Source: Companilactobacillus formosensis
GTDB taxonomy: Bacteria; Bacillota; Bacilli; Lactobacillales; Lactobacillaceae
Reading direction: 5' to 3'
Assembly (NCBI RefSeq): GCF_005405305.1
Contig: NZ_BJDU01000004.1
Coordinates: 62,001-126,000, forward strand
Length of the DNA stretch: 64,000 bases
Under the pieces are notes generated by a model. It saw only the letters and a list, made by a program, of their open reading frames with translations. It was not told the origin of the DNA and made no database searches. Positions within the stretch are counted from its first letter, which is position 1, and each line of letters starts with the position of its first letter. Below, piece after piece: positions 25,525 to 42,212 of this stretch. A program made the position numbers and the translations under genes.

Positions 25525-27828
25525 ACGTTCAATAATAAAAATAAATTGGCTGTTCTATCAGCTGTATTATTGACATTTATTGTTCTCATGCCGTTTACTA
25601 CTCAAGTAGTTTTTGCGGACGCCGACAGTGATGCTATTAGCAATGCGCCAGTTGGTTTGGATATTTCAAAGTACTTTGATGTTGGCAATTTTGAGAAGAC
25701 ATCTACTGAAGATGACAATTATCCATATCAAACTAACTCGGCTACTATTTACAACAATTCTAGTGATTCATCTGATAAGCACAACGGTCGTGTTTTGGAT
25801 ATGGCTAAGAGTGGTGATGAAAAGAGTGTCGGAGCTGCCTGGTCAAAAATAGGCAGTGGCAGTGATAATTATATTGATATAAATAAAAAACAAACTGTTT
25901 CGGTTTGGCTTTATTTTGGTTCTGGAGAAGATACGGATCCTTTGAGCAATGGTGAAGGGATGTCGTTAGTTTTGCAAAATGATTCTCGTGGAACTTCTGC
26001 CATGGGAGCTGGAATGCAATCTCTAGGTTCGATGGGAGCCGATACAGCTAAATTGAAAGCTATTGGTACTAATCTTTTGGGTAATTGGAATTGGAGTAAA
26101 GACTCTAGTTCTGGTGCCACGACCAATACCCCGGAACAGGCCGCCCAGACTGCGGTTGGTAACAGTATTGCTTTGAATTTCAAAACAGAAGATAACAATT
26201 TGATGGGGAGTAAACTTCAACAGCCTATTCAAATTGGCGAAACTCCAATAGATTATGATAATGTCCTACATACTGGTGGGAAGAAATATTTGTATTACAC
26301 ATTGAATAGTTTTGATACGCCAAAGGGTACGGATACGCCACCTGCTACTTTTCCAGCCTATAATGATTTATTAAGTGTTGATTTTGGCAATTACATTCCT
26401 TCATTGAAGTTAGGTAATACGGGTAGTTCTTATGGCTTGATCAATTTGACTTATCCTGGCAATTCAGTTTCGTACAAGTCATTGGATTTAAATAATATTC
26501 GTAATGATGATCAACTAAAAGCTAGTCTTTCGACGATTGGAAATGGTAGCTTGTGGGCTTATATCACAGGTGTTTCCAATAAAGGTAAGGCTTTGTCGAC
26601 CTATCAAGCAGCACCAACTCAAACTCACTTGATTGACGGTGACGATGAAAATGGTAATCCAATTTATTGGCATCATTTGACCTTTACTTGGAATCCAGCT
26701 GAAAATGGGAATCCGGCTACAATTAGTTATGATTACAATGACAAATATCCTGACGGAACTACTAATACCGGTCAGAGTGATTATTATGACGAAGTTAAAG
26801 AAACTATCCCAGTCGATCCTAGCGAACTCGGTAATCCAACTGACGGACACGTTTATTGGGGCTTGACCGGTGCCAATAATGAGAAAGCTAATTACAGCAA
26901 ACTAGCCGTTTTCGAATCAATCCCCGCACTAGCCACTGCCACAGCGACTGCTTCATTGACTGATAACGATTTGAACAAAACTATCACTGACGATTCAACC
27001 GACAATACCGTCAATAATGGCGATAATTTGAGCTTTGACTACAATTTGAAGTGGGATAATACCTCACGTGAAAACTGGCAAAATATCGTCTCTGATTTGA
27101 ATTTGCCAACTGATGTTACCTATCGTTCAGCTACAATCACTTATAAAGATGCCAATGGTAATAGTAGTAGTCCAATTACAATTTCCGATTCTAAAGGGAT
27201 GACTAATAGCACTTTAGGTTACACTTTGACAAAAGACCTCGGAACAATCGACACTAATAATGGTTATACGAGTGCTGACATAGTTTTAAACGGTACCGCT
27301 ACTAATTCAACTGGCCAAGAAATCACCGTTTCACCAGCGCCGGCCACATTCAAGGGCGACAATGCGATTGAAACAACAAGTACACCGCAATTCAAAATTG
27401 AAGGCAACAAAGTCCCTGATAAAATTTTGAAATTGACTGTTTCAAAGGATTTGAATTTCCAAGACATCAATTATCAAGCAACGAAAAAATACATCACAAG
27501 AAAAAATGATTTTGACTTGACCGTAACTAGTCTCAGATCTCCTTGGAAATTAGATGTGTCCACGAACGGACTATCACTAAACGGCAAGTCTTTCCACGGT
27601 AGTTTAGTTTACAAAAAGAACCAAGCAACTACCGAACCATTGACCAGTTCAGATGAATTGATAGCCCAAGACTTGAATTCATATCAAGACAAAACCGTTA
27701 GTGATTTATCAGCTACCTGGACGAAAAATACTGGCTTGTTACTAGAACCAGATCAAGATCAAGTATCACCAGCAGGCAAATATCAAGGAACTCTAAATTG
27801 GACTTTAGTCAATTCAATTACAAATTAG
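25525..27828 (+). CDS. Large secreted lectin-like protein of the WxL cluster, unusual start codon
   Basis: About 767 residues. Signal peptide LAVLSAVLLTFIVLMPFTTQ ending VFA-DA. Residues 30-430 look like an L-type lectin-like sandwich (TVSVWLYFGSGE, LSNGEGMSLVLQND, YWHHLTFTWNP); later repeats are Ig/DUF11-like (TASLTDNDLNKT and similar). No WxL motif, sorting signal or membrane helix is visible. AGGAGTG (25511-25517) points to initiation at 25525, where the codon is ACG; the first standard codon is TTG at 25546, which would keep the hydrophobic core but lose the basic start. Either rare initiation or a start-codon mutation. Confidence 0.75.
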   Translation, partial: TFNNKNKLAVLSAVLLTFIVLMPFTTQVVFADADSDAISNAPVGLDISKYFDVGNFEKTSTEDDNYPYQTNSATIYNNSSDSSDKHNGRVLDMAKSGDEKSVGAAWSKIGSGSDNYIDINKKQTVSVWLYFGSGEDTDPLSNGEGMSLVLQNDSRGTSAMGAGMQSLGSMGADTAKLKAIGTNLLGNWNWSKDSSSGATTNTPEQAAQTAVGNSIALNFKTEDNNLMGSKLQQPIQIGETPIDYDNVLHTGGKKYLYYTLNSFDTPKGTDTPPATFPAYNDLLSVDFGNYIPSLKLGNTGSSYGLINLTYPGNSVSYKSLDLNNIRNDDQLKASLSTIGNGSLWAYITGVSNKGKALSTYQAAPTQTHLIDGDDENGNPIYWHHLTFTWNPAENGNPATISYDYNDKYPDGTTNTGQSDYYDEVKETIPVDPSELGNPTDGHVYWGLTGANNEKANYSKLAVFESIPALATATATASLTDNDLNKTITDDSTDNTVNNGDNLSFDYNLKWDNTSRENWQNIVSDLNLPTDVTYRSATITYKDANGNSSSPITISDSKGMTNSTLGYTLTKDLGTIDTNNGYTSADIVLNGTATNSTGQEITVSPAPATFKGDNAIETTSTPQFKIEGNKVPDKILKLTVSKDLNFQDINYQATKKYITRKNDFDLTVTSLRSPWKLDVSTNGLSLNGKSFHGSLVYKKNQATTEPLTSSDELIAQDLNSYQDKTVSDLSATWTKNTGLLLEPDQDQVSPAGKYQGTLNWTLVNSITN

Positions 27829-34603: not shown

Positions 34604-36421
34604 TTATTTAATTTGTTTCAAAGCATCAGAAACAGCTTCTTTAATAGCTTTACTTGAAGCAGAAGCACCAGAAATTGTATCAACGTCGACTGTATTCTTT
34701 TCGACGATTTCTTTTGGCAATTCTTTAACAGCTTTGAGACCGTAATCGTCAGATTCACTTTGCTTCAAAACTTCGATATCTTGAATATCATCTTTGCTAT
34801 TGGCAGTGACACGTACGACGATTTCATTTCCCATACCGGCAGTAGATTTTCCGATGTATTGGTTGTCGTTAGTTTCGTAGTGTTCTTCGCCAACATCTGA
34901 TCCTAAGCCTTCTTCGTGAACGCTAGCTGAGGTATTGGCGTCAACTTTGACGGATTCAACGTCTTTTTCTTTAGCAGCATTTTCACCGGCAATCTTACCA
35001 AAAATTAAGTTTTCAGCCAAATTGCTACCACCGTTGTATTGACGTCCCATCAAACTTCCTAGTTCACCACAAGCATATAGATGAGGGATGATTTCATCGT
35101 TTACGTCAACAACTTCGGCGTTGGAATTGTGAACAGGACCACCTTGAGTATTCAACAATCCTTGAACCATGGCTAAGCAATAGTAAGGACCATCGTCAAA
35201 GGCTGTCAAAGTATCAGCATCACGATCAAAGGCATAGTCACGTTTGATTTCTGCAAAGTGATTGAAGTCTTTGATAGTGCTTGCCAACTTGTCTGCGTCA
35301 ACGTTCATTACTTCAGCTAAACTGTTCAAATCATCAGCTTTAACGACTGACTCCATAAATTCTGGATAAGGAGCATTTTTATCGTTCTTTAATTCGTCAT
35401 ACTTCTTTTGGTCAAAGACAACATATGGATGACGTTGAGCCAAAGGAACTCTCCAATTGCCGTGGTCTTGGATGTGTCCGTGACGGTGAATTTCATTTTC
35501 ATCGAAGTAACGAGTTCCATCATCGCCGACAACAATCAAACTGCCTTGGTGGAATGCAGGCCAATCAAATGGCAAGAATTGTGAACGTTGACCTTTAGCT
35601 GGTTTAGGAGTTAATCCATGGAAAATACCATAAGATTCATAGTTGTTCATGTTGTAAAGCTTAGCGCCGACTTCACTAGCCATTGTGACACCGATACCTT
35701 TGTTATAAAGAGAACCGATTGGATTTAGACTAGTTTCGCCGAGATAATTTTCGACCATTTCAGGATTGTTTTCAAAACCACCAGTAGCCATGACGACACC
35801 GTTGTTAGCTTTGACATTCAAAAGTTTGCCGTTGCGTTCGATTTGAACCCCGACGATAGCTTTCGTTGCTGGATCTTGAATCAAGTGTTTTGCAGGTGTT
35901 TGATACAAGACGTCAATCTTGTCAGCACGGTCTAAAACTTGTTGACGGAGATTCTTCCAAAGAGCAGAATCAGCGACACCTTCGTGAACAGCAACTAATT
36001 CGTGAGTAGCTTGACCACGGAATTCTGGATATTCATGAGCCATAAAGTGCAAAGCTTTAGAAACAGGTGATTCTGGGTGCTTGCCCATGATGAAAGGTTT
36101 AACACCAAGATAATTTTCTAGGTAATTAGGAATGTCATAGAGTCCTTTGACAAAAGTTTCCATCAAATCTTTGTCATATGACAATGGGAAAGCTAAATCT
36201 TCATAATATTTACGTAAATCATCTAAATTGTCACCTGATGAAATAACTTGACCAGCGTAGCGAGTATTGCCACCCTCATGACCCTCTGGAGCTGAGTCAG
36301 TAATCAAAACTTTGGCGTTGTTGTCAGCCGCAAATCTAGCAGCACTGGCACCAGCACCACCGAATCCTAAAACAATTACGTCATAAGTTGCGTTCCAATT
36401 TAATTTTGAATCCTCAAACAT
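34604..36421 (-). CDS. Flavinylated fumarate reductase-type flavoprotein (FAD_binding_2 plus FMN-binding domain)
   Basis: 605 residues, no signal peptide, so cytosolic. Residues 1-500 are the FAD domain: VIVLGFGGAGASAARFA (dinucleotide fold), TQGGPVHN and GRQYNGGSNLAENLIFG of the fumarate reductase family. The C-terminal 95 residues are an FMN-binding domain with DTISGASAS (581-589), the ApbE target motif in which the last Ser takes FMN. Relatives reduce fumarate, urocanate, acrylate or hydroxycinnamates; the substrate is unclear here. The start at 36421 follows GGAGTG. Divergent from apbE, which should modify it; the FMN reductases beyond may feed it electrons. Confidence 0.85.
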   Translation of the reverse strand: MFEDSKLNWNATYDVIVLGFGGAGASAARFAADNNAKVLITDSAPEGHEGGNTRYAGQVISSGDNLDDLRKYYEDLAFPLSYDKDLMETFVKGLYDIPNYLENYLGVKPFIMGKHPESPVSKALHFMAHEYPEFRGQATHELVAVHEGVADSALWKNLRQQVLDRADKIDVLYQTPAKHLIQDPATKAIVGVQIERNGKLLNVKANNGVVMATGGFENNPEMVENYLGETSLNPIGSLYNKGIGVTMASEVGAKLYNMNNYESYGIFHGLTPKPAKGQRSQFLPFDWPAFHQGSLIVVGDDGTRYFDENEIHRHGHIQDHGNWRVPLAQRHPYVVFDQKKYDELKNDKNAPYPEFMESVVKADDLNSLAEVMNVDADKLASTIKDFNHFAEIKRDYAFDRDADTLTAFDDGPYYCLAMVQGLLNTQGGPVHNSNAEVVDVNDEIIPHLYACGELGSLMGRQYNGGSNLAENLIFGKIAGENAAKEKDVESVKVDANTSASVHEEGLGSDVGEEHYETNDNQYIGKSTAGMGNEIVVRVTANSKDDIQDIEVLKQSESDDYGLKAVKELPKEIVEKNTVDVDTISGASASSKAIKEAVSDALKQIK

Positions 36422-36574
36422 TTCATTCACTCCAATTCCTCTAAATGTTAGGATTAATATAACTCTATTTATGGATATTGTGAATAACTTACCTTTGTCG
36501 TAAACGACACAAAAGACTATGATAGAGGGTGTTCACTATCGTAAATTATTTTTTTATGAATTGAGGAAGGTTCA

Positions 36575-37504
36575 ATGGGGCTAATTAACAAGAGCTATTA
36601 TGCATTGGGAACGGTGATCAATCTGTCAGTGGCAGAACCTAGTAGTACGGCTGATTTAGAAGCTGGCTATAAGTTGATTCAAAACTTTGAAGATAAGTTG
36701 ACCGTCAATCGCGAACAATCAGAAGTCATGTCGATCAATCATTTTGCTGGTATCAAGCCGATTCAAGTGCCAGAAGATACGTATAATTTAATTAAAAGGG
36801 CTGTCTTAGTTAGTCGTAAGCACTTAGGCTTTAACGTGGCAATCGGGCCATTAGTTAAATTGTGGAAGATTGGTTTTAAGGGTGCTAACAAGCCTTGTGA
36901 CAAAGATATCAAGGAGCGCTTACGAATTATCGACCCAGAAAAAATAATCCTCGACGACGCCGATATGAGCGTATTTTTGCAGGAAAAAGGTATGGAGATT
37001 GATCTCGGTGGTATTGCTAAAGGCTATATCGCTGATGAAATCAAAAAACTTTGGCAAAAGCGTGGCGTTCAGACAGGAATTATTGATTTGGGTGGCAATG
37101 TTTTATTAGTCGGCGACAGTTTGCATGAGGATAAGTTATGGAATATCGGCATTCAAAATCCAGTTAAACCAAGAGATGTTTCCTTAGGCGTTGTACATAT
37201 TCCTGAGAAATCAATTGGTACGTCAGGCATTTATGAGCGCAAGTTGGTAATTGATGGTCATGAATATCACCACATGTTTGATTCAAAGACCGGTTACCCA
37301 ATCAAGAATAACCTTGCTAGTGTGACAATTATTAGCGACAAGTCAATCGATGGTGAAATTTGGTCGACAATTGGTTTTTATCAAGGCATCGACCGTGGAA
37401 TGGCTTTGATTGAAGCACAAGAAGGAATTGAAGCTGTTTTCATTACGAAAGACTTAGAAACCTTTGTAACGAGTGGTCTAAAAGATAATTTTAAAAAAAT
37501 ATAA
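36575..37504 (+). CDS. apbE: FAD:protein FMN transferase
   Basis: 309 residues. Transfers FMN from FAD onto Ser/Thr of target proteins, using Mg2+. Family motifs are IDLGGIAKGYIAD, GIIDLGGNV, SIGTSGIYERK, HHMFDSKTGYPI and the metal-site DGEIWSTIGF. It lacks a lipoprotein or signal peptide, unlike many ApbE, so it acts in the cytosol on the neighbouring reductases. GAGGAAGG precedes the start. First gene of the run leading to two FMN reductase-like genes. Confidence 0.93.
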   Translation: MGLINKSYYALGTVINLSVAEPSSTADLEAGYKLIQNFEDKLTVNREQSEVMSINHFAGIKPIQVPEDTYNLIKRAVLVSRKHLGFNVAIGPLVKLWKIGFKGANKPCDKDIKERLRIIDPEKIILDDADMSVFLQEKGMEIDLGGIAKGYIADEIKKLWQKRGVQTGIIDLGGNVLLVGDSLHEDKLWNIGIQNPVKPRDVSLGVVHIPEKSIGTSGIYERKLVIDGHEYHHMFDSKTGYPIKNNLASVTIISDKSIDGEIWSTIGFYQGIDRGMALIEAQEGIEAVFITKDLETFVTSGLKDNFKKI

Positions 37505-37603
37505 CTATATTATATGAAAACAATCACATAATTATATTGCTTTACCTAGTGAAACATTTTACAATTAACATGACAATAAAATAGAAGTGGGATGATTAAG
37601 GAT

Positions 37604-38212
37604 ATGAATAAATTTATCGCTATTGTGGGATCAAATTCCCAAAAATCAACCAACCGTGAATTATTGAAATATATGAAGAGACATTTCCAAGATTTGGCTG
37701 AGATTGAATTAGTTGAAATCAAGGATTTGCCAATCTTTAAGAAGAGTGCAGACAAGTACGTGCCACAACTGGCTAAAGACATCGCTAAGAAAATTGAGGA
37801 CGCTGACGGTGTCATTATTGCTACTCCTGAATACGATCACTCTGTAACGGCTGTTTTGTCGAGTGCCTTAGCTTGGCTTTCATATGGAATCCATCCATTT
37901 GTCGACAAACCTGTTATGATTACCGGTGCTTCTTATGGATCTCTTGGGTCATCACGTGCCCAAGCTCAACTACGCCAAATCCTCGATTCACCAGAAATCA
38001 AAGCTAGAATTATGCCTAGCTCAGAATTTCTTTTGGGACATTCACTACAAGCCTTTGATGATGATGGCAACTTGAAGGATAAGGATATCGTTAAAGAATT
38101 GGATGGCCTATTCCAAGACTTTCTTCAATTCGTTAATATTTCAAAACAATTGAATAATGCAAAAGATGCTACAAAGCAAAAAGCTGCCACATTTTCATGG
38201 GACAAAGACTAG
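37604..38212 (+). CDS. NADPH-dependent FMN reductase family protein
   Basis: 202 residues from 37604; the ATG at 37592 is an alternative and neither has an ideal binding site. Flavodoxin-like fold: [20 protein letters not shown] (phosphate loop), [20 protein letters not shown] (isoalloxazine contact) and [19 protein letters not shown]. It reduces FMN or donates electrons from NAD(P)H. Located between apbE and a longer paralog that starts 11 nt after its stop, so the genes are an operon. Probably the electron entry for the flavinylated reductase. Similar split systems include hydroxycinnamate reductase loci of lactobacilli. Confidence 0.87.
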
Positions 38213-38222
38213 GAGGGATAGT

Positions 38223-39488
38223 ATGAAATTAGTTGGAATTGCTGGATCAATTGCTGATCAATCATATAATCGTACATTATTAAACTTTATCGCTAAACAT
38301 TTTACAGGACTAATCGACGTTGATGTCTTGGATATCAATGAAGTACCAATGTTCAACCAAGATGACGACCAAACAAACAGCCCCGTTATTCAAAATCTTT
38401 GCAAGAAAATTTCAGCTGCCGATGGGGTTATCATTGCTACTCCGGAGCACAATCACACTGTTCCTGCAGCCTTGAAGAACGTTATCGAATGGCTATCTTA
38501 TGAAGTACATCCTTTCGATGGCAAACCCGTAATGATTGTCGGAGCTTCATACCATACTCAAGGGTCATCACGTGCCCAACTACACTTGAGACAAATCCTT
38601 GAAGCACCTGGTGTTAATGCAGTTGTCTTGCCTGGTAATGAATTCTTATTAGGCGACGTTAAGACTGCTTTTGACGAAAATGGCGATTTGAAGGATCAAA
38701 GAACAGTTGATTTCTTACAAACTACTTTGCAAAACTTTATCAAATTTGCCAAAGTTATCAACTTGATCAGTCAATCAAACGGCTACCAAGACGAAGACCT
38801 TTCCGCTAAGAAGGGAACCGATACAACTATTCAAGGTATCGATATGAATGATGACGACTGGTTGGACAAAGCTGCTAAGAAAGTCAACGCTGTTGAAGGT
38901 GGTACTTATGTCAAATTAGACAGTGGTTTGTTGACAGTTGATCAATTGAACTATTTCTTAAAGACTATGCCAGTTGAATTGACTTACGTTGATGAAAATA
39001 ATCAATTTATTTATTACAACAAAGTTGGCAAAGCTGAAGACATGTTGGCTAAACGTGTTCCTGCTCAAGTTGGGGATGCTTTAGACAAGGTTCACCCTAA
39101 TATCGAGCGCGTTATGAAACACGTTAAGCAAGTTATCTATGACTTGAGAAGTGGCAAGACTGATTTAGTTTCAATGCCAGTACCTGGTGGTGATTCAGAT
39201 CATCACGTAATGCACTATTACAAAGCAATGCATGACGAAAATGACAATTACAAGGGTGTTAATGAATGGGCTGTTGATATCAAGCCAATCGTTGACCAAT
39301 ACTTGCAACAAACTGGTCAAAAACTAGTTCCAGATCCAGATGCTAAATTGGACGCTACGTCCGGTGCTTCTAAAACTGAAGATAAACCAGCAGTTGATGC
39401 AAACTCCGGCGCTTCAGAATCAGCTGAAGAACCCGCGGTTAAACCAGAAGTAAAAGTAGATGCTACATCAAGTGCTTCGAAGAACTAA
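38223..39488 (+). CDS. FMN reductase fused to a PAS-like domain and a tail with repeated flavinylation-like motifs
   Basis: 421 residues; start after AGGAGGG. Residues 1-180 are an FMN reductase domain like the preceding gene ([37 protein letters not shown]). Residues about 205-365 resemble the PAS_10/DUF438-type sensor region ([39 protein letters not shown]). The last 50 residues are disordered, Ala/Pro/Glu/Lys-rich, and hold DATSGASKT (377-385), DANSGASES (392-400) and the degenerate DATSSASKN (413-421). The first two fit the ApbE target Dxx(S/T)GA(S/T)x(S/T). No FMN-binding domain surrounds them. Confidence 0.82.
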
Positions 39489-40818: not shown

Positions 40819-40871
40819 TATGTTAAAATATTAACTATAATGATATTAAATCGTAAAAGGTGGTAGTTATT

Positions 40872-42212
40872 ATGAAGGTAAGTATCGTAGGTTGTACACA
40901 TGCAGGAACTTTTTCAGCAATGAATATTTTGAAAGAACACCCAGATTGGGAAGTTTCTGTTTTTGAAAGAAATGATAATCTTTCTTTCCTATCATGTGGG
41001 ATCGCACTTTGGGTAAGTGACCGTGTTTCAGATCCTAATAAGATGTTTTATGCTAGTCCCGAAGCTTTGACAGAACTTGGTGCACATATGCACATGCAAC
41101 ACGATGTTACAAATATTGACTTCGATAATAAGAAACTAGCCGTTAAAAATCTAGTTAGTGGGGAAACTTTTGAGCAAGATTATGACAAGTTGGTCATTAC
41201 TACTGGTTCAGCTCCAGTTATCCCTCCAATTCCAGGTATTGATTCAAGCCGTGTAATGCTTTGCAAGAATTGGACTAACGCTAATGAATTGAAAGAAAAT
41301 GCTAAAGATATCAAGAGTGCCATCGTTATTGGTGCCGGTTACATCGGTGCTGAATTAGCTGAAGGTTATGCTACTCTTGGTAAAGAAACTACTTTGATTG
41401 ATGCTTTGCCACACGTTTTAGGTAAGAACCTTGACCCTAACATGTCAGCTGTTGCCGAAAAAGATTACCTTGATAATGGTGTAAAACTCGGTATGGGAGA
41501 AAAAGTTCAATCATTTGAAGAAACAGATCATAGTGTAATTGTAAAAACTGATAAAAATACTTATGAAGCTGATATCGCTGTTATGTGTGTCGGTTTCCGT
41601 CCTAATACAAAGATGTTCGCTGACGAATTCGAAACTTTGCCAAATGGTGCTTTAATTGTGGATAAATACATGCACACAAGTAAAGAAGACGTCTTCTCAG
41701 CTGGTGATGCTGCATCCGTTCACTATAATCCAACTGGTGACAACCAATACATTCCTTTGGCAACTAATTCAGTTCGTCAAGGTATCTTAGTTGGTAAGAA
41801 TATCGAAAAAGACACAGCACCTTACATGGGAACACAGGCTAGTTCAGCGGTTGAACTATTTGGCAGAACTTACGCTGCTAGTGGTTTGACTAAGGAACAC
41901 GCTGAAGTTCTAGGTAAGAAAGTTGATAGCGTATCTCTAGAAGACAATTATCGTCCAGAATTTATGTTGACAACTACTCCTGTTTTGATGAACCTCGTAT
42001 GGGATCCAGAAACAAGAGAAATCCTCGGTGGCGCTTTGACAAGTATGTATGATGTATCACAATCTGCTAACCTCTTGTCATTAGCTATCCAAAAGAAAGT
42101 TACGATTGATGAGTTGTCCATGGTCGACTTCTTGTTCCAACCTAACTTTGACAAGCCAGTTAACTACGTCAGTGCCTTAGCTGGAGCTGCTGTGGAAAAA
42201 GCTGATAAATAA
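40872..42212 (+). CDS. nox: NADH oxidase, H2O-forming type
   Basis: 446 residues. FAD- and NADH-binding pyridine nucleotide-disulfide oxidoreductase reducing O2 to water and regenerating NAD+. The redox Cys lies in LSFLSCGIALWV (position 42 type), the FAD site at VSIVGCTHAGTFSA and VFSAGDAA, and the NADH site at AIVIGAGYIGAELAEG. The C-terminal dimer domain is present. Close relatives include CoA-disulfide reductases, but Nox fits best. AAAGGTGG precedes the ATG at 40872. Own terminator, cre-like site upstream. Confidence 0.92.
   Translation: MKVSIVGCTHAGTFSAMNILKEHPDWEVSVFERNDNLSFLSCGIALWVSDRVSDPNKMFYASPEALTELGAHMHMQHDVTNIDFDNKKLAVKNLVSGETFEQDYDKLVITTGSAPVIPPIPGIDSSRVMLCKNWTNANELKENAKDIKSAIVIGAGYIGAELAEGYATLGKETTLIDALPHVLGKNLDPNMSAVAEKDYLDNGVKLGMGEKVQSFEETDHSVIVKTDKNTYEADIAVMCVGFRPNTKMFADEFETLPNGALIVDKYMHTSKEDVFSAGDAASVHYNPTGDNQYIPLATNSVRQGILVGKNIEKDTAPYMGTQASSAVELFGRTYAASGLTKEHAEVLGKKVDSVSLEDNYRPEFMLTTTPVLMNLVWDPETREILGGALTSMYDVSQSANLLSLAIQKKVTIDELSMVDFLFQPNFDKPVNYVSALAGAAVEKADK

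Follow-up and report, generated by a model that had tools for sequence, protein, structure and literature searches.

A flavin reductase–PAS protein with repeated ApbE motifs in its C-terminal tail, encoded near apbE in Companilactobacillus formosensis and its relatives

The redox locus and its tailed protein

The stretch of DNA analysed here (the window, 64,000 nucleotides of contig NZ_BJDU01000004.1 from Companilactobacillus formosensis) contains four redox genes in a row: a flavoprotein gene on the reverse strand and then, on the forward strand, apbE, a short FMN_red gene and a gene for an FMN_red–PAS protein with a C-terminal tail. The divergent flavoprotein (34604..36430, − strand) was assigned FAD_binding_2 and FMN_bind domains by Pfam and carries an ApbE motif, DTISGAS, within FMN_bind (34661..34681, − strand) and a relaxed motif, DANTSAS, in its linker (34922..34942, − strand). 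The ApbE flavin transferase (36575..37504, + strand; PF02424, E 3.4e-74) has no N-terminal signal or lipobox that could be seen by eye. As an earlier, sequence-only reading of this DNA had recognised, its gene belongs to the same run as the tailed gene and shares its strand; it lies two genes upstream, the short FMN_red gene (37592..38212, + strand; Pfam), which encodes a FRedA-like partner, standing in between. About 1.4 kb downstream of the run lies a gene of the pyridine nucleotide-disulphide oxidoreductase type (40860-42212).

The tailed gene (38223..39488, + strand) encodes 421 aa: a FRedB-like FMN_red domain, a PAS_10 domain and a tail with three motifs. AGGAGG lies just 5′ of the start at 38223; the mechanical open reading frame begins earlier, at 38157, and overlaps the gene upstream. 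The FMN_red domain covers residues 1–144 (38223..38654, + strand; PF03358, E 9.5e-39; Foldseek matches 1rtt and 3svl). Between it and the tail sits the PAS_10 domain, residues 242–354 (38946..39284, + strand; PF13596, E 2.5e-25), for which the closest structures by profile were 2qkp and 3cax; the first of these, the PAS domain of Streptococcus mutans SMU_1151c, was also matched by fold with Foldseek. AlphaFold2, given the window protein aligned to 32 named relatives, returned a mean pLDDT of 78.6 and a pTM of 0.57, with pLDDT under 50 only over residues 370–421, so that this tail (39330..39485, + strand) is predicted to be disordered. Pfam and AlphaFold2 together bear out the architecture proposed from the letters alone—FMN reductase, PAS domain and disordered motif tail. 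That reading was also right to see no FMN-binding domain around the motifs: Pfam found no FMN_bind (PF04205) match in the protein, and the idea that the tail is itself such a domain was rejected for the same reason.

Tail motifs, their conservation and their link to apbE

Three heptamers occupy the tail on the + strand: DATSGAS from residue 377 (39351..39371), DANSGAS from residue 392 (39396..39416) and DATSSAS from residue 413 (39459..39479), which confirms the previously noted spacings of 15 and 21. The published ApbE consensus is D-x-x-[S/T]-G-A-[S/T], with FMN attached to the last S/T of the heptamer (PMC12052999). The first two motifs fit it strictly, as had been claimed, and the third deviates in having Ser in place of Gly; in a Klebsiella fumarate reductase, changing the motif Gly to Ala retained about half of the flavinylation (PMC12052999). 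Because the consensus puts FMN on the last S/T, FMN is predicted at S383 and at S398, and S419 is a further candidate; the residues named in the sequence-only reading, T385 and S400, are two positions off.

When the 47-residue window tail was shuffled 200,000 times, no shuffle held two strict motifs and 327 held one. Within the organism's own genome, the back-translated motif gave 13 DNA matches, ten of which encode a strict motif in an open frame, while the remaining three are not strict motifs or contain a stop. Two of the ten lie in the window tail and one in the neighbouring flavoprotein; another falls, by position, within a second FMN_bind protein on contig 10, and one sits near the C terminus of a dihydroorotate dehydrogenase, three residues short of it. 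The five that remain are buried deep within other frames and appear to be chance occurrences. A 760-aa open reading frame elsewhere in the window (25546-27828), with no Pfam match at E 0.01, has a lone DSSSGAT at residue 186 that is probably also due to chance.

The gene family was matched in 259 of 301 Lactobacillaceae genomes, many through the FMN_red part alone; the genome sets used here consist of related species, so that counts overstate independence. Among fetched loci, at least one strict tail motif was present in 60 of 72 full-length open reading frames (three of which, L139–L141, were accepted as full by length) and in 21 of 22 stand-alone PAS frames. Under a relaxed expression, D..[STAG][GSA]A[ST], the motif occurred in 150 of 151 distinct FMN_red–PAS tails and in all 23 distinct stand-alone PAS tails, so the motifs to which the sequence-only reading drew attention are conserved in orthologues. 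The one tail without a relaxed motif (L179) carries NAVSSAS and HAVSGAS. Of the 151 FMN_red–PAS tails, one had no relaxed copy, one had a single copy, 56 had two, 56 three, 28 four and nine five to seven, giving 93 tails with three to seven; a strict motif was absent from 30. The 509 relaxed motifs in relatives, for which the search expression itself prescribes D and A, have G at position 5 in 368 cases, S in 136 and A in 5, and end in S in 483 and in T in 26. In a family-wide alignment of 20 rows, the A-S pairs of two motifs form the only invariant columns of the tail; linkers and spacing vary across tails while the motifs are kept.

At least one relaxed motif was observed in 173 of 174 tails (stand-alone proteins included), two relaxed motifs in 171 and a strict motif in 143, against 2.5%, 0.05% and 0.26%, respectively, after shuffling. 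We rejected chance repeats as an explanation, since shuffled versions of the window tail and of the 174 tails of relatives seldom hold motifs. In 80 named loci, the top-ranking ones of 567 that were confirmed, the last 75 residues held a strict motif in 58 cases and a relaxed one, here with D or H allowed as first residue, in all 80; these loci come from Enterococcus, Vagococcus, Trichococcus, Gemella, Oceanobacillus and many lactobacilli, among others. Matches to the PAS-tail part turned up in 95 Enterococcus plasmid records as well. In two loci (L186 and L222, the latter labelled Tetragenococcus halophilus) the FMN_red–PAS gene is broken into two frames of 94 and 309 aa.

Gene order is likewise kept. 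The short FMN_red gene lies immediately upstream in 79 of the 80 named loci, and in 55 of the 80 the locus also includes apbE, encoded on the same strand. Across the Lactobacillaceae, apbE was found in 100 of 101 genomes positive for the PAS family compared with 61 of 200 PAS-negative genomes, treating the 301 genomes of the two counts as one set and applying cut-offs of E<=1e-50 for apbE (161 genomes counted; 20 weaker of 181 matches dropped) and E<=1e-60 for the PAS profile (101 counted; 26 weaker of 127 dropped). The lone PAS-positive genome without apbE is 76 percent complete. The association persisted when stratified by genus (CMH p 1.6e-8), in a test covering 159 genomes with a stated genus from 14 chosen genera, with g14, g24, g33, g37 and g38 among the genera omitted. 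In five apbE-sparse genera, a contrast picked after the table had been seen, 8 of the 9 genomes with the PAS family had apbE, against 0 of the 47 without it. In genera g5, g11, g20 and g22 every counted genome has apbE, whether the PAS family is present or absent; apbE must therefore serve other clients there, and its co-occurrence in these genera is uninformative.

Architecture, motif conservation, gene order and co-occurrence with apbE are established for the window family, and these comparisons support identifying the tail motifs as ApbE-type motifs, conserved and tied to apbE. The repeats might instead serve some other purpose, as sites of another modification or as simple low complexity with no flavinylation at all, which would suit the 30 of 151 tails that lack a strict motif. 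Motif frequency far above that of shuffled tails, the adjacency of apbE, its co-occurrence within genera and the flavinylation reported for tailed FMN_red relatives (PMC11334425) all speak against this alternative, which we regard as very improbable.

Described relatives and the proposed electron route

Two lines of published work bear on the window protein. The first concerns FMN_red proteins of Lactococcus with C-terminal ApbE motifs in disordered tails, two of which were flavinylated on co-expression with their cognate ApbE, the predicted S/T being required; WP_021723379.1 is a Lactococcus protein tested in this way, and flavinylated FMN_red proteins are mostly from Firmicutes (PMC11334425). 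The window locus shares with these proteins the FMN_red domain, an unstructured, motif-bearing C-terminal extension and a nearby apbE. Compared with what the text of that paper describes, it differs in motif number (three, against one to two) and in adding a PAS_10 insert and a partner FMN_red gene; the main text of PMC11334425 has no match for PAS or heterodimer.

The second line concerns FRedA/FRedB of Lactobacillus johnsonii, an NADH-oxidising heterodimer with two FMN sites that hands single electrons to O2 and, as the FRedA/FRedB–LjPAS system, is tied to H2O2 production (PMC4500961). The window has the same layout: two consecutive FMN_red genes (37592-38212 and 38223-39488) and a PAS module, from which we infer a heterodimer here too. 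LjPAS is a separate protein in L. johnsonii, whereas PAS is fused to FMN_red in the window protein; a PAS–FMN reductase fusion in L. plantarum is noted in the same paper, with EF1227 in the legend of its Fig. 1 (PMC4500961). The main text of PMC4500961 yields no match for ApbE, covalent, flavinylat or motif. A search of titles and abstracts in the open-licence PMC literature found no paper joining FMN_red tails with FRedA/FRedB–LjPAS. The sequence-only reading knew of no described family with this layout, which is partly incorrect: tailed, ApbE-flavinylated FMN_red proteins (PMC11334425) and the FMN_red–PAS fusion (PMC4500961) had each been published, although the text of neither paper connects them. 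The window protein is mostly new in the way it combines two features that were each on record.

A third system, from L. plantarum, pairs HcrA, which has a flavin-reductase-type domain, with a long NADH- and FMN-dependent HcrB, a heterodimer having been proposed (PMC10295242). It resembles the window in setting a small flavin-reductase-type partner beside a long protein. A locus from the genus of the window (L135) has a short FMN_red gene and a fusion of FMN_red, FMN_bind and FAD_binding_2; its long protein, judging by layout, is presumably HcrB. Like the window protein it begins with FMN_red, but it has FMN_bind and FAD_binding_2 where the window protein has PAS and tail. The possibility that the window protein is itself an HcrB was rejected, as Pfam found no FMN_bind or FAD_binding_2 match in its chain.

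Related architectures recur across relatives. Stand-alone PAS-tail proteins, without an FMN_red domain, occur in several genera, and those of g37 (244–247 aa) are, from their size and kind, probably LjPAS. Eight loci (L284–L291) have a motif-bearing tail on an FMN_red protein without a PAS hit, domains having been checked by Pfam for L285; apbE is present in seven of the eight loci and a small PAS gene in five. They belong to the family that holds a Lactococcus-like genome (G663, so placed by 99% identity to a protein of an L. lactis plasmid), whose tailed FMN_red proteins are of two kinds, one having PAS (L272) and one giving no PAS hit (L284). A Lactococcus lactis plasmid carries a Crp/Fnr regulator, apbE, a short FMN_red gene and an FMN_red–PAS gene with DATSGAS twice in a row. 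Two more PAS-like proteins with motif arrays flank an apbE gene in another locus (L187:3980-6424).

The explanation that we favour, and consider fairly probable as a whole, is that the tail forms a tethered arm bearing several FMNs, which carries electrons from an NADH:FMN reductase dimer to O2 or to flavoproteins. It retains the flexible arm with covalent FMN that the sequence-only reading had suggested, a reading that the comparisons support in part. The window protein would be the subunit that bears the tail in a heterodimeric, cytosolic FRedA/FRedB-type reductase, with an LjPAS-type PAS domain in the same chain. A cytosolic ApbE would load FMN onto the repeated D-x-x-[S/T]-[G/S]-A-S motifs at their serines; once tethered, these flavins would accept electrons from FMN bound at the active sites of the dimer and pass them to whatever acceptors they can reach. 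For the window protein itself we infer each of these steps, from dimer formation and tail flavinylation to electron transfer along the tail and its acceptors. O2, giving H2O2, is a likely acceptor by analogy with the L. johnsonii enzyme.

Within the genus of the window, the divergently encoded FAD_binding_2/FMN_bind reductase may be another acceptor. It is a candidate on the strength of its FMN_bind motif and of its linker motif, D-x-[NQ]-[TS]-SAS, which is kept in 8 of the 8 orthologues examined, and the L135 protein, joining FMN_red, FMN_bind and FAD_binding_2 in one chain, offers a precedent for the proposed route. A close homologue of the flavoprotein (over 500 bits) adjoins the operon in 7 of 72 loci, the organism's own included, but all seven are from the same genus and only one of the 80 named loci has such a neighbour. 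We accordingly rejected a fixed pairing, the genes being adjacent in close relatives only; the earlier suggestion that electrons pass to the neighbouring flavoprotein is weak and draws on gene order in those relatives.

The Lactococcus work favours a different role, in which the tail flavin is anchored near the active site, and its models place the modified sites near the flavin pocket (PMC11334425). Applied to the window family, the tail FMN would dock into the FRedA/B dimer at its FMN sites, doing no more than prevent loss of the cofactor, a role consistent with the Kd of FRedA/B for FMN of 1.96 uM and with the purified dimer being only partly filled (PMC4500961). Such pure anchoring is argued against because at least three relaxed motifs occur in 93 of the 151 tails and the dimer has two sites, and because stand-alone PAS tails have motifs without an FMN_red domain; in addition, the PAS domain intervenes between the FMN_red domain and the tail. 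We judge it unlikely, even if its standing in PMC11334425 counts against the tethered arm, as do the tails without a strict motif.

A further observation that counts against the tethered arm is that LjPAS made FRedA/B assemble more slowly in vitro and left the dimer, once complete, unaffected (PMC4500961). Together with the repression of the LjPAS gene by more than 3-fold without oxygen (PMC4500961), this would fit a regulatory module, in which PAS and tail govern how the reductase assembles and the tail flavin, if any, is a sensor or brake. Regulation of this kind leaves the repeated ApbE motifs and the link to apbE unexplained, and we hold it to be distinctly improbable.

Tagged enzymes elsewhere and wider meaning

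Similar C-terminal tags were found on other enzymes by following single proteins rather than by a survey. The dihydroorotate dehydrogenase on contig 11 of the organism's own genome (L309:1501-2646), of the quinone-dependent type (NF003652, 327.7 bits against a cut-off of 267), has a C-terminal extension ending DANSGASFHE; the tag is present in three of eight matches (L309, L310 and L311) and absent from L312–L316. Among 31 pyruvate oxidase loci (30 of the best matches plus L051), nine encode enzymes with one to three strict C-terminal tags (L051, L317–L319, L324, L327 and L344–L346) and 18 encode untagged ones, with L320, L321, L333 and L342 outside this count. The three tagged pyruvate oxidases tested score above the TIGR02720 spxB cut-off, and a Ligilactobacillus acidipiscis plasmid (L347) also encodes a pyruvate oxidase with a strict C-terminal tag. 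In four loci (L113, L116, L118 and L119) an untagged pyruvate oxidase, apbE and a stand-alone PAS-tail gene occur together; the PAS tail of L119 has relaxed motifs only. One locus with a tagged oxidase also encodes a 112-aa protein ending DAVSGASKK (L327:3758-4096), HesB-like by eye and with no NCBIfam match.

A broader, tentative idea, which we think possible and yet doubtful, is that ApbE tags constitute a general cytosolic electron-arm system of lactic acid bacteria. Multi-FMN tails would act in cis on NADH:FMN reductase–PAS proteins, PAS proteins, pyruvate oxidase and quinone-type dihydroorotate dehydrogenase. The tethered FMN would take the place of quinone or of free flavin, and O2 or fumarate-reductase-like enzymes would receive its electrons. 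Examples of cytosolic flavinylation in PMC12052999 include fumarate reductases from Klebsiella and from trypanosomatids, and the range would widen past these with tagged pyruvate oxidase and dihydroorotate dehydrogenase.

The window family joins two published strands, the ApbE-flavinylated tails of FMN reductases and the FRedA/FRedB–LjPAS system. Should the tethered-arm explanation hold, the published assays of LjPAS may have used protein lacking its covalent flavins, and a single modification would offer a way to test how lactic acid bacteria form H2O2 and dispose of electrons.
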